Shown in pieces: positions 50,815-62,132 of a stretch of 64,000 nucleotides of DNA. Positions within the stretch are counted from its first letter, which is position 1. Every line of letters begins with the position of its first letter. Both the position numbers and the translations under genes were made by a program. The notes beneath the pieces are model-generated. The model searched no databases and was not told where the DNA came from. It saw nothing but the letters and a program-made list of their open reading frames with translations. Source of the DNA: Flavobacteriales bacterium (GTDB taxonomy: Bacteria > Bacteroidota > Bacteroidia > Flavobacteriales_D > Sanyastnellaceae); assembly GCA_019694805.1 (NCBI GenBank), contig JAIBBG010000003.1, positions 62,001 to 126,000 on the forward strand, given 5' to 3'.

Positions 50815-51648
50815 TTAAAAGGGAACTATTTGGAATCCGACAGTTACCGGATACACTTCTGGTCCTTTGTTTTTTTGGAACAATGGTGTGAGTCCATAAG
50901 TTGCGAAAACCGTGAAGTTTCTATATCCTAATCGCGCGGTTGCATCGAGGGTAAAAGGAGAGAAATTGTAATCTGCTTTGTTGCGGTATTGGTGTTTTTC
51001 TCCATTCGACTCCCATTTTTGTTTCGAGATGCTACCCATTTTCCAACCACCAATGACGCCGGCAGCTAGGTGGAATGATTTATCGTTGTCATCACTGGTG
51101 TTAAATTCCAACATAACAGGAACGTTCACATAGGTTGCGCGGAGCTTGTTTTTCGAAAATGTCATCAGTGTATCGGGGATGGTTACTGCGTAAGTAGCGG
51201 AACTATCTTCAGTGAACACGCGCACATTGTTTTTCAGTCCGTAGCTGTTGTAGGTCAAACCTGCACCTACGATTAGCCCAACATAATCCTTATAGAATCT
51301 AATTTTTTCTTCGAAGATGTTGAATCTCCAGCTGAAGGATCTGCTGTAGTCAAGGTCGAGCCATTGTGAAGCAGAATCCATGGTCATGCTGCCATTTTTG
51401 GTAAGCAGCATATTTACTCCGAGGTCAATACCGTCCCAATGGGTGAGTGTGTATTTATCGGTTGATTCGTCATAAATGGAATCGTTGGAGTTGACGCTAA
51501 CGGAGTTCAGAGAGTCTTTATCTGTTTTGGGTTCAATCACCAGGATCTGTTTATCACCAAGCATGATGTTGGTGGTATCCTTTTCTGTTTGCGCAAAACC
51601 CAAAGTGATGGTTAGGATTGCGGCGAATGTCATGCTCAGCTTTTTCAT
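50815..51648 (-). CDS. outer-membrane beta-barrel protein, PorT-like
   Basis: A 277-residue protein with signal MKKLSMTFAAILTITLGFAQ. The N-terminal acidic part (DTTNIMLGDKQILVIEPKTDKDS) is a linker, followed by about eight strands: WDGIDLGVNMLLTKNG, RSFSWRFNIFEEKIRF, YVGLIVGAGLTYNSYG, RATYVNVPVMLEFNTS, FHLAAGVIGGWKMGS, FTLDATARLGYRNFTVFATYGLTPLF and a final strand near the C-terminus (YPVTVGFQIVPF). It resembles the PorT/outer-membrane-barrel group; whether it serves T9SS is not shown. Transcribed alone. Confidence 0.82.
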   Translation of the reverse strand: MKKLSMTFAAILTITLGFAQTEKDTTNIMLGDKQILVIEPKTDKDSLNSVSVNSNDSIYDESTDKYTLTHWDGIDLGVNMLLTKNGSMTMDSASQWLDLDYSRSFSWRFNIFEEKIRFYKDYVGLIVGAGLTYNSYGLKNNVRVFTEDSSATYAVTIPDTLMTFSKNKLRATYVNVPVMLEFNTSDDNDKSFHLAAGVIGGWKMGSISKQKWESNGEKHQYRNKADYNFSPFTLDATARLGYRNFTVFATYGLTPLFQKNKGPEVYPVTVGFQIVPF

Positions 51649-51712
51649 ATTACGTGTTTTATGTTGAACTTTCTTATTAAGCGATGTTTTCAGGAATAGG
51701 ACGACACGGTTA

Positions 51713-51727
51713 CCTGTAAGTTACAGG
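51713..51727. repeat. inverted repeat in the barrel / TonB-like intergenic region
   Basis: CCTGTAA-G-TTACAGG, perfect 7-bp arms with a 1-nt centre, lies in a 294-nt divergent gap. Short spacing favours a protein-binding site over a hairpin. It could serve either flanking gene. Confidence 0.35.
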
Positions 51728-51942
51728 CTCATTGAATTTTTTTTCATTGTTGTTCTCCGGCTTCTGGATGTTCGGTTTAATCACATGGCGATCATTGTTT
51801 TTGGATGAAGATGTTCCGGATTCCGATAATTTGACCGCTTAACAAAAATTCTAACCATTTGTGAAATGTGATACAGGTGACCGGGTATCTATATGTAACT
51901 TCACGCGGTGAGTAAACGTCGTAACTGAAAACCACCTTTTCA

Positions 51943-52278
51943 ATGAAACGAAATTGGACAAAACTGATATTTGGAGCATTACTCTGCGTGGCTTCACTAT
52001 CGGCATTTTCGTCTCCACAGTCATTCGATCAGGATAATAACCGCAGAGGCGTAGAAAAAAATGATGCTGAGGAGCAAGAGCCGAATCTGGATGGTGTTGT
52101 TGAAGTGAGTTTTAAAATTGATCAAATGGGCAAGGTTCAGATTCTGAACATCAATTCTACCAGCCCACAATTGTCAGAGTATGTGATCAAAAAGCTCTCG
52201 AAGATCCAATTGGAAGAGGGAAATTCACAAGTGGGAAAGGTGATTAAGTACCGATTCGTCTTTAAAAAGCAAGCCTAA
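51943..52278 (+). CDS. small secreted TonB-C-terminal-like protein 1
   Basis: A 111-residue secreted protein: signal LIFGALLCVASLSAFS, then a short acidic linker, then GVVEVSFKIDQMGKVQILNIN followed by a LSEYVIKKLSKIQLEE helix and VIKYRFVFKKQ. The order of two strands, helix and strand, with GKV in the first hairpin, resembles the C-terminal domain of TonB energy transducers, but there is no N-terminal helix anchor. First of three related genes here (51943, 52518, 53082). It may be a free domain that binds receptor or envelope partners; this is inference. Confidence 0.72.
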   Translation: MKRNWTKLIFGALLCVASLSAFSSPQSFDQDNNRRGVEKNDAEEQEPNLDGVVEVSFKIDQMGKVQILNINSTSPQLSEYVIKKLSKIQLEEGNSQVGKVIKYRFVFKKQA

Positions 52279-52517
52279 ATTTTATTCTGATATCCATTTG
52301 TCTGTTGAGTTCTATCAACAGAACACGTGCCTGTTGCCCTTTGAACGCGTTTGGCACTTTCTATACCCCGTTGATATAGCCTTTTGATAAGCCGCCTCAT
52401 TGGTGCTCGAGGAGAATTGATGTTTGCGTGGATGTATTTAAGGAATTTTTACAATGTGGCTGTAACAAAACACAACTCGTTATCGCCTCATGACAAAACA
52501 AGCAAAAACCAAACAAC

Positions 52518-52883
52518 ATGAAAGCGCTCGCCATCTCCCTTCTTCTGATGATATCTGTCATGCAGGTTAACGCAGGAGTATTGACATCCGACAAAAGAAA
52601 ACCAAGGGAAGTCAACAAAGAACAGACACTCAAAAATGCATTAGACAAGCAAGTAAGCAGACACATTTACTATCCGTCTCAAGAGGAATCAATGGAAGGT
52701 AAAGCCGACGTGATGCTACAAATGATGCCAGAGGGAGATGTTCAAGTTGTGTTGATTCAAACAGCGAATCCCTTGATGAAAAAATTCATCGAGAGACAAG
52801 CGAAGAAAATGAAAGTGGACAAACAAGATGCGGTTGCAGGTCAGATTTTCAGATACCGCATTGTTTTCATTGCAAAGAATTAA
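52518..52883 (+). CDS. small secreted TonB-C-terminal-like protein 2
   Basis: A 121-residue protein with signal MKALAISLLLMISVMQVNAG. The body has the same layout as the gene before it: a linker with TLKNALDKQVSRHIYYPSQEESMEG, the strands KADVMLQMMPEGDVQVVLIQTANP, helix LMKKFIERQAKKMK and a final strand IFRYRIVFIAKN. A good terminator follows 43 nt after the stop, so it is expressed apart from gene 3. No anchor, receptor or ExbB/D gene is adjacent. Confidence 0.72.
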   Translation: MKALAISLLLMISVMQVNAGVLTSDKRKPREVNKEQTLKNALDKQVSRHIYYPSQEESMEGKADVMLQMMPEGDVQVVLIQTANPLMKKFIERQAKKMKVDKQDAVAGQIFRYRIVFIAKN

Positions 52884-52925
52884 AGAAGCAAGTAGTTATC
52901 AATAAACAGGTCTAAGAATCAAATG

Positions 52926-52962
52926 CCGCAGACAAAAAGTTGTCTGCGGTTTTTGTTTGTTT
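52926..52962 (+). terminator. rho-independent terminator
   Basis: The 8-bp stem CCGCAGAC/GTCTGCGG with an 8-nt loop is followed by TTTTTGTTTGTTT. It ends the transcript of TonB-like gene 2. Confidence 0.85.
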
Positions 52963-53081
52963 CCATATGAATCGTGTGTTAACACCTTTCAACAAATCCT
53001 TCACGTTTTTTCAATGATTAAATTGTAACACCTTCATATGCGCTATCGTTTTTTGCAGTGAAAAACAAAACCAATCGTATC

Positions 53082-53426
53082 ATGAAAATCACACTCGCAT
53101 TTTTCATTGCATTATTCAGTATTCAGAACACTTTCGCCGGCCACGGCGATGACACAGGTGAGAAGACCAGAAGCGCTATTGCCGCGGAAATTGGTCGCCA
53201 ACTTAGTTATCATGAATTATCGGATTCATTCCGAGGGGGCGTTGCGTTTGCAGAAGTGAGGGTATTAGAATCGGGCATGATGGAAGTAATGAATGTGAAT
53301 GCTGCCACACAGCGTCAACGGGAAATTATTGAGCGAGAAATCGAATCAATTCAACTCAACTTGCCATCTAACGCTACAGGGAAAACATTTGCATTTCGTT
53401 TTCATTTTGTACAACGAAACGCTTAA
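53082..53426 (+). CDS. small secreted TonB-C-terminal-like protein 3
   Basis: About 114 residues from ATG 53082 (an upstream in-frame GTG at 53058 adds eight residues). Signal MKITLAFFIALFSIQNTFAG, then KTRSAIAAEIGRQLSYHEL, a strand pair GVAFAEVRVLESGMMEVMNVN, helix QREIIEREIESIQ and strand KTFAFRFHFVQRNA. It is diverged from genes 1 and 2 but keeps the layout, so the three look like one family amplified locally. It ends 22 nt before the rlmN -7 box. Confidence 0.7.
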   Translation: MKITLAFFIALFSIQNTFAGHGDDTGEKTRSAIAAEIGRQLSYHELSDSFRGGVAFAEVRVLESGMMEVMNVNAATQRQREIIEREIESIQLNLPSNATGKTFAFRFHFVQRNA

Positions 53427-53464: not shown

Positions 53465-54541
53465 ATGACCGCGAATAGGAAGGACATAAGAAGCCTCACG
53501 GCAGAGGAGTTAACGGAATTTTTTATTCTCCATGGGGAGAAAAAATTTCGAGCGAAACAGGTACAGGATTGGTTGTGGAAGCGCGCTGCCGGTTCATTTG
53601 ACGAGATGTCTAATCTTTCAATCGACACCAGAAAATTATTAGCTGATCATTTTGATCTGCACAAGATCAAACTTTCCGACCAACAAATTAGCGGTGACAA
53701 GACCATCAAATGTGCTTTTGAGGTTGAACCCGGTAAGATTGTGGAAGGTGTTCTCATTCCGACCACCTCCAGGATGACGGCGTGTATTTCATCGCAGGTT
53801 GGATGTAGTCTTGCTTGTAAATTTTGTGCAACGGGAAGATTGAAGATGATGAGAAATCTGACCGCTGGAGAAATCTATGATCAGGTCGTTTATTTAAAGA
53901 ACGAGGCAGAAACGCGATACAATATTCCATTGTCGAATATTGTGTATATGGGCATGGGCGAGCCATTGCTCAATTATAAAAACGTAATGTCTTCGGTTGA
54001 AAAAATTACTTCACCAGATGGTTTAGGCATGTCGCCTCAGCGCATCACTGTGAGCACGGCAGGAGTTGCGAAAATGATTATGAAGCTCGGCGATGATCAG
54101 GCAAAATTCAATCTTGCGCTATCGTTGCATGCTGCGAATGATGAAAAGCGGAATAAGATTATGGACATCAACGAGTCTAATCATCTGGAGTCTTTAGCAC
54201 ATGCGCTGAGCTATTTCTATCAAAAGACAGGATCACGTGTTACATTCGAATACATCATCTTCAAGGATTTTAATGACTCTATCAAGGACGCTCACGAATT
54301 GGCAAATTATTGCAAGCGATTGCCAGTGAAGATTAACATCATTGAATACAATCCCATCGATGATGGCGAATACCAGCAGGCATCTCCTGAGCGGGTTGAT
54401 GCTTTCGCGAAATTTCTCGAGTCGAAAAACCTCATCGTCAATGTGAGAAGATCGCGAGGAAAGGACATCGATGCCGCATGCGGTCAGTTAGCGAATAAGA
54501 ATACTGCGATCTTGAAAGACGAGCGGGTTTTGAAGCGTTGA
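53465..54541 (+). CDS. rlmN: 23S rRNA (adenine2503-C2) / tRNA-A37 methyltransferase RlmN
   Basis: A 358-residue radical-SAM enzyme. The iron-sulfur triad is CSLACKFC (near residue 118-125) and the methyl-carrier Cys pair is completed by AACGQLANK near 343. SAM and substrate segments include GMGEPLLNYKNVMSSVEK, RITVSTAGVAKMI and LSLHAANDEKRNKIMDIN. It methylates A2503 of 23S rRNA and A37 of certain tRNAs, affecting decoding accuracy. Length is typical. Confidence 0.96.
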   Translation: MTANRKDIRSLTAEELTEFFILHGEKKFRAKQVQDWLWKRAAGSFDEMSNLSIDTRKLLADHFDLHKIKLSDQQISGDKTIKCAFEVEPGKIVEGVLIPTTSRMTACISSQVGCSLACKFCATGRLKMMRNLTAGEIYDQVVYLKNEAETRYNIPLSNIVYMGMGEPLLNYKNVMSSVEKITSPDGLGMSPQRITVSTAGVAKMIMKLGDDQAKFNLALSLHAANDEKRNKIMDINESNHLESLAHALSYFYQKTGSRVTFEYIIFKDFNDSIKDAHELANYCKRLPVKINIIEYNPIDDGEYQQASPERVDAFAKFLESKNLIVNVRRSRGKDIDAACGQLANKNTAILKDERVLKR

Positions 54542-61574: not shown

Positions 61575-62132
61575 TCAGGCCGTCGCAATTTTTTGTTTTG
61601 AAGCGATCATTTTTTGTAATTCTTCCCGGGCTTTACTCACGTGCCACTTGCTTGTGCCGTCGCTGATGCCCAACATTTCAGCTATTTCTGCGTGTGAGTA
61701 ACCTTCGATGGCAAAGAGGTTAAACACGAGTCGTGTTGCTTCCGGAAGAGCAAGCAGCATGATCTCCAATTGCTCTGAGGTAAACTTTTCTTCCGTTTCA
61801 TTGAGCGTGTGAAGTCTGGATATTGATGTTACATCTTCTCTCAACTGTAGCACTTCATGCCGCTTTTTGTTTTTTCTATATTCATCAATGATGGTGTTTG
61901 TCATGATTTTTCTGCACCATGCTTCGAATGCACCATCATGCTCATTAGTGCCGAGCGATCTGATCAATTTGATGAAGGCGTTATTCACAAGCATTGTTGC
62001 ATCATCATAGTTCACCACATATCTTCTACACATTCCCATCATCACCGGAAACACGATGCTGTACAACTCCGTCTGCGATCGACGATCGCTTTTGACGCAT
62101 TGCTGTATGAGTTTCCGTGATACTTCTTTCAT
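61575..62132 (-). CDS. ECF-type sigma-70 factor
   Basis: A 185-residue sigma factor. Region 2 spans about residues 20-95 (ELYSIVFPVMMGMCRRYVVNYDDATMLVNNAFIKLIRSLG ... AFEAWCRKIMTNTIIDEYRKNKK, containing the promoter-melting and -10-binding parts), and region 4 about 120-180 (QLEIMLLALPEATRLVFNLFAIEGYSHAEIAEMLGISDGTSKWHVSKAREELQKMI, with a helix-turn-helix). It is followed at 2 nt by the candidate dual membrane-spanning anti-sigma factor, its probable partner. Targets cannot be listed without the binding motif. A hairpin precedes the gene. Confidence 0.94.
   Translation of the reverse strand: MKEVSRKLIQQCVKSDRRSQTELYSIVFPVMMGMCRRYVVNYDDATMLVNNAFIKLIRSLGTNEHDGAFEAWCRKIMTNTIIDEYRKNKKRHEVLQLREDVTSISRLHTLNETEEKFTSEQLEIMLLALPEATRLVFNLFAIEGYSHAEIAEMLGISDGTSKWHVSKAREELQKMIASKQKIATA

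Follow-up and report, generated by a model that had tools for sequence, protein, structure and literature searches.

Three consecutive small genes in the analyzed window (the whole 64,000-nucleotide stretch of Flavobacteriales DNA) most likely encode free-standing TonB-C-terminal-type domains that are predicted to be periplasmic. Judging by a promoter element that they share, these proteins are most likely periplasmic members of the regulon of the ECF sigma factor P0004, acting together with an outer-membrane beta-barrel that is encoded divergently from the first of them. The comparative evidence suggests that the three genes and the barrel gene are parts of one envelope-signalling module, not stray TonB fragments. 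In the reading that we consider reasonably probable, this module comprises sigma factor, anti-sigma factor, barrel, and TonB-CTD-like proteins, and the small proteins would bind tip peptides of their partners and thereby tune or end the signal.

Three small exported proteins are encoded in an array

The genes lie on the forward strand at positions 51943 to 52278 (gene 1, 111 amino acids), 52518 to 52883 (gene 2, 121 amino acids), and 53082 to 53426 (gene 3, 114 amino acids), where the initial annotation had placed a run of three successive open reading frames (ORFs). For gene 3, the ATG at 53082 was used as the start; a GTG at 53058 is an alternative. Read by eye, the N terminus of each protein carries a single hydrophobic stretch with a signal-peptidase-I-like site at its end, with cleavage-like positions between VNA and G in gene 2 and between TFA and G in gene 3. 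No recognizable membrane anchor was seen in this reading of the N termini, and a proline-rich periplasmic spacer is absent from all three sequences, as had been proposed. Gene 2 is followed by an intrinsic terminator of its own (52925 to 52950, forward strand), an 11-pair stem with a T run, which bears out another of the earlier observations.

Judged by their relatives in other genomes, the three ORFs represent real genes. A relative of gene 1 at an E value of ≤1e-8 occurs in 24 of the 36 relatives from the same taxonomic family, gene 2 has orthologues in five genomes (G014, G017, G027, G033, and G036), and gene 3 gives weak matches, the best of them outside its own genome at an E value of 4.6e-5, and none of 60 relatives has a clear orthologue of it. 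In searches of their own genome, the three genes detect one another at E values of 5e-5 to 3.4e-3. A search of further genome contigs returned six loci, in Flavobacteriales or Crocinitomicaceae metagenome-assembled genomes (MAGs).

In the phylogenetic tree, genes 1 and 2 fall into two distinct old clades, and several genera have members of both (support for the gene 2 clade, 98/99), and gene 3 forms a long branch without firm placement. A recent tandem duplication was considered as the origin of the array and was rejected for genes 1 and 2 on account of these separate clades. The local multiplication suggested by the initial annotation is thus not a fresh tandem event, and a fourth co-regulated TonB-CTD-like paralogue, P0005, is found on another contig of the same genome (G000 C36; L193, 3015 to 5478). 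P0005 precedes genes for PadR and a PspC-domain protein. In G025 (L112), a homologue with the element described below is followed, by eye, by a similar PspC-like protein.

The small proteins resemble TonB C-terminal domains

Gene 1 matches the Pfam family TonB_C (PF03544) at an E value of 6e-4 and with a score of 20.6 bits, below the cutoff of 24.6, and genes 2 and 3 gave no useful Pfam match. PF03544 is matched by 17 of the 32 members of the family alignment. When the family profile was compared with solved sequences, the nine best of 19 rows in all at an E value of ≤1 were all TonB C-terminal domains (CTDs), the best with an E value of 0.0012. AlphaFold2 models of gene 1 (core pLDDT of about 95) and gene 3 both display the order strand-strand-helix-strand, which is the core common to the TonB CTD (PF03544) and TolA domain III.

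Foldseek searches of the PDB with these two models ranked TonB and TolA-III domains first, although none of the E values was below 0.001, and the fold claim is therefore based on the ranking order, the probabilities, the gap in VIA-align Z scores, and the independent sequence profile. VIA-align matched the gene 1 model to FusB (Z of 7.5 over 64 residues; rmsd, 2.1) and E. coli TonB (Z of 7.4), with unrelated structures from a Z of 4.0, while the HasB CTD scored low (Z of 2.9). The gene 3 model was matched to TolA-III (Z of 8.3 over 86 residues; rmsd, 3.0) and FusB (Z of 7.5), with unrelated structures from a Z of 4.5. These comparisons support the assignment of the modeled proteins, genes 1 and 3, to the TonB C-terminal type. 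Gene 2 is tied to the fold by its alignment and its homology to gene 1, on sequence only.

The resemblance to TonB CTDs claimed in the initial annotation is hence borne out by the profile and by the models of genes 1 and 3, which resemble TonB CTDs as well as each other. The common layout that it described stands for the signal-peptide-like start and for the strand-strand-helix-strand order, seen in the models of genes 1 and 3 and in the alignment of gene 2. It does not extend to the N-terminal helix, which gene 3 keeps and gene 1 lacks. In the family alignment, gene 2 aligns to this helix region with a YP motif (YYP), and the YP-containing region is missing from gene 1 and its nearest relatives, so that gene 1 consists of the core only.

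The lack of a proline-rich spacer, and of an anchor recognizable by eye, sets genes 1 to 3 apart from TonB transducers, for which free TonB-type domains are readily mistaken. No exbB or exbD was seen by eye among the neighboring genes. One could imagine that such soluble TonB mimics serve as decoys, occupying the TonB boxes of receptors while the sigma factor is active and so cutting transport through a stressed outer membrane. Periplasmic TonB fragments are inhibitory when overproduced, and the small proteins combine a modeled TonB-CTD fold with the lack of a recognizable anchor, which would preclude energy coupling. The TonB box is bound by beta augmentation to strand 3 of TonB, according to the accessible part of a review (PMC11658791), which also describes binding of soluble TonB fragments. 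However, the neighboring and co-occurring partner is a small OMP_b-brl_2 barrel rather than a TonB-dependent receptor, and gene 1 no longer has the helix region with the YP motif; we regard the decoy function as unlikely.

A structural role, with the domains stabilizing the envelope by attachment to peptidoglycan or lipoproteins, as TolA domain III and further periplasmic tethers do, appears rather improbable. It would fit the gene 3 model, which aligns with both TonB and TolA domain III, the position of the co-regulated paralogue P0005 in front of the PadR and PspC genes, and the apparent lipid anchoring of two relatives (LSSC and TSC motifs, by eye), but the Z scores of the TonB and TolA structures lie too close together for a choice. 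The reading that we prefer, a signalling role alongside the barrel, draws on the fold, the promoters, the gene linkage, and the conserved tips of the partner proteins.

A common ECF-type promoter element precedes the array and a divergent barrel gene

Two features were absent from the initial annotation, namely, a common ECF promoter and a divergent barrel gene. The latter (50815 to 51648, reverse strand) is divergent from gene 1 and encodes an outer-membrane beta-barrel of 277 amino acids (Pfam OMP_b-brl_2; E value, 2e-9). The pattern TGTAAC-N16/17-CG[TC][TC] occurs four times in the window, compared to a mean of 0.67 in 30 mononucleotide shuffles, and the four matches precede genes 1, 2, and 3 and the barrel gene, one each. 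The predicted promoters of the barrel gene (51700 to 51725, reverse strand; TGTAAC-N16-CGTC, 77 nucleotides before the start codon) and gene 1 (51894 to 51920, forward strand; TGTAAC-N17-CGTC, 49 nucleotides before the start codon) fit the strict pattern. Those of gene 2 (52461 to 52487, forward strand; TGTAAC-N17-CGCC, with a weaker -10 box) and gene 3 (53024 to 53050, forward strand; TGTAAC-N17-CGTT) require the relaxed -10.

Genome-wide, the strict pattern has seven matches versus 16 for the reversed pattern, and there is no overall excess. Five of the seven are intergenic and lie 49 to 77 nucleotides 5' of a start codon, which applies to none of the 16 reversed-pattern matches (Fisher P = 6e-4). 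The five stand before the barrel gene, gene 1, an ECF sigma gene, P0005, and a gene for an exported 160-amino-acid protein; the other two are located possibly before a re-annotated start and inside an ORF, respectively. The relaxed pattern yields 31 matches genome-wide against 71 in the control; 30 of the 31 were inspected, leaving out one without a locus. The exported 160-amino-acid protein (L126, 1568 to 2050) has no Pfam match, and its strict element is situated 67 nucleotides upstream.

Across 20 syntenic loci around family members, the element is found at most 200 nucleotides upstream of 11 of the 211 ORFs of at least 100 amino acids, and these 11 are five barrels and six family members, with nothing else. 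Among 38 upstream regions of the protein family (35 relatives plus the three window genes), the strict element is found in 20 and the relaxed one in 24, and 23 of 34 barrel homologues have the element upstream. Start codons in these upstream scans were chosen by script and some are wrong: the scripted family count missed gene 1 of G018, whose element was found in the pattern scan, and the G023 barrel was truncated at its start. The element is absent upstream of five homologues of the small proteins from other families of the order.

P0004 is the probable sigma factor of the module

The ECF sigma gene with a strict match, P0004 (G000:C87:146607-147095), is located about 33 kb from the array on the same contig. 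It is followed by a gene for a single-pass anti-sigma-like protein, P0007, of 523 amino acids with a single membrane helix by hydropathy. The pattern [TA]GTAAC-N16/17-CGT[CT] is found 36 to 86 nucleotides 5' of all 30 P0004 orthologues examined, the window genome's own copy included. Because of this constant association, the element very probably represents the promoter specificity of P0004 itself, and the promoter comparisons argue well for one ECF sigma factor driving both the barrel and the small proteins. The other ECF gene of the window (61575 to 62132) was considered as a controller and rejected, as no element match lies in front of it.

The distribution of the element and of close P0004 orthologues is not uniform. 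Seven barrels in sister MAGs of the same genus have no element, and a close ECF orthologue was not found in those MAGs. G010, G024, and G029 contain gene 1 and neither the element nor a close ECF orthologue, and G025 has the element and no close ECF orthologue. The alternative that the element is served by another ECF sigma factor and is connected to P0004 by chance would accord with G025, with the 21 first-look ECF candidates of the genome, and with the AAC and CGT boxes that ECF promoters have in common, but it is quite unlikely given that P0004 is the only ECF gene among the seven strict matches, that all 30 of its examined orthologues are preceded by the element, and that the barrel adjoins a P0004-type ECF gene in other families.

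The best NCBIfam match of P0004 is NF058625 (PG0214/GFO_1088 family), at 111.2 bits and thus below the cutoff of 130. In Porphyromonas gingivalis, unlike in the P0004 cluster, the genes listed after PG0214 are those of DUF4252 and hypothetical proteins. We take PG0214 to be SigCH (PGN_0319) of that species. In the accessible text of PMC5607195, SigCH is reported to regulate cdhR and hmuYR, and PG_0215, which adjoins PG_0214, is termed a putative anti-sigma factor in that of PMC10101095.

The barrel and the sigma factor co-occur with gene 1

By eye, the syntenic order of a serine hydrolase, a 134-amino-acid protein, an exonuclease-like protein, the divergent barrel, gene 1, and rlmN is kept, and the barrel adjoins gene 1 across the family. 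With thresholds chosen post hoc, shared descent ignored, and many of the genomes being drafts, gene 1 occurs in 24 of the 26 family genomes that have the barrel (E value of ≤1e-25) versus 1 of 11 that lack it (Fisher P = 2e-6), and in 15 of 15 genomes with a close ECF orthologue (E value of ≤1e-50) versus 10 of 22 others (P = 4e-4). Counted by genus, the latter contrast equals 11 of 11 versus 3 of 10. It is weaker at the looser ECF threshold of 1e-25 (18 of 22 versus 7 of 15; P = 0.04).

Other families of the order have a cluster in which the barrel comes third, after the ECF and anti-sigma genes. The anti-sigma factor (P0007) and the barrel (P0006) are encoded separately. Cluster barrels have an element of their own in L194, L195, L196, L197, L201, and L202 and lack it in L203 and L204.

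Barrel and anti-sigma factor carry conserved tip peptides

Directly after its signal peptide, the barrel protein has a conserved segment, DTTxIxLGDxxIxxI. Within the motif D-T-T-x-hydrophobic-x-hydrophobic-G, D24 and T25 are each kept in 34 of 35 sequences and the G in 29 of 35. The mean entropy of this N-terminal segment (1.74) is close to that of the barrel itself (1.77), compared to 3.01 for the acidic linker after the segment.

The anti-sigma factor ends in a C-terminal tip of the form hydrophobic-K/R-hydrophobic-G-K-F-x-hydrophobic followed by basic residues, the conserved stretch continuing as x-R. This pattern, defined after the tails were seen, is located in the last 35 residues of 38 of 41 anti-sigma factors, where 1.2 would be expected in shuffled tails; neither of the two windows before these residues gives a match in any of the 41. 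P0007 is one of the three misses, its tip, with the stretch RIKLGPFSI, being farther from the end than the last 35 residues. The set of 41 leaves out the L133 copy, which is cut by the locus edge, and contains P0007 in place of the cut L132 copy. Net charge is basic over the last 15 residues in 39 of 41 anti-sigma factors and acidic over the barrel linker in 33 of 35 cases.

Conservation of both tips extends to cases in which a co-regulated TonB-CTD-like gene was not found, and the TonB-CTD-like proteins therefore cannot be essential to the pathway.

A possible trans-envelope pathway and its relation to known systems

The accessible part of PMC13088901 describes the Dma proteins of Bacteroides, in which an anti-sigma domain, a membrane helix, a disordered tether, and a barrel form one chain. 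The present system shares with it a Bacteroidota ECF sigma factor and an anti-sigma factor linked to an outer-membrane beta-barrel. It differs in that two separate proteins with tip peptides take the place of the single polypeptide, and in the additional TonB-CTD-like proteins. The anti-sigma tip and the N-terminal segment of the barrel are conserved beta-like peptides, which suggests a Dma-type anti-sigma factor split into two proteins.

In the corresponding scheme, sigma factor, anti-sigma factor, barrel, and TonB-CTD-like proteins would form an envelope-response module. The N-terminal segment of the barrel would meet the C-terminal tip of the anti-sigma factor in the periplasm as a non-covalent counterpart of Dma, a step proposed because of the parallel with the fused chain. 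Once the anti-sigma factor lets go, P0004 would transcribe the barrel and TonB-CTD-like genes. A TonB-CTD-like protein might then bind one of the tip peptides by strand addition, and this binding might tune or terminate the signal. The strand-addition step is proposed because this fold class binds such peptides in that manner, as TonB does with TonB boxes; from this analogy, the small proteins could conceivably bind the tips in this way and modulate the signal. The most specific version is doubtful: a Flavobacteriales trans-envelope pathway in which the inner-membrane anti-sigma factor and the barrel touch through conserved beta-strand tips, and TonB-CTD-like proteins made under the same sigma factor bind these tips, acting as adaptors or in feedback control.

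A conserved ECF module with a barrel would offer a concrete route for reporting the state of the outer membrane to transcription without a fused Dma, and it would give TonB-like domains a role outside transport. Among known promoters, the SM6 ECF-type promoters of Flavobacterium psychrophilum, as given in the accessible part of PMC9723704, are alike in having a CGT box at -10 and in including an outer-membrane protein along with a sigma/anti-sigma pair of the ECF type; they differ in that the listed genes center on type IX secretion. The accessible parts of PMC12611786 and PMC12045153 contain no sigma response relevant to this module, and that of PMC5378342 goes no further than listing these sigma factors as increased in biofilm. 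Both small TonB_C proteins and systems of the ECF/anti-sigma/barrel type are already known. Their combination, with the paired tip peptides, was not found described in the open-access literature searched.

The rlmN gene borders the array

The gene downstream of the array, named rlmN by eye (53465 to 54541, forward strand), starts 38 nucleotides past the end of gene 3. Because of this short distance, gene 3 and rlmN may be co-transcribed. In most syntenic loci (the window and L100 to L118), the gene directly 5' of rlmN is a TonB-CTD-like one in the same orientation, for which reason rlmN may be transcribed from the ECF promoter. The family member that adjoins rlmN varies, being gene 1 in some loci, gene 2 in others, and gene 3 here. 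In L116, L117, and L118, which represent three genera, a response-regulator-like gene separates the barrel from gene 1, and a further ECF gene lies beyond rlmN and lepA.
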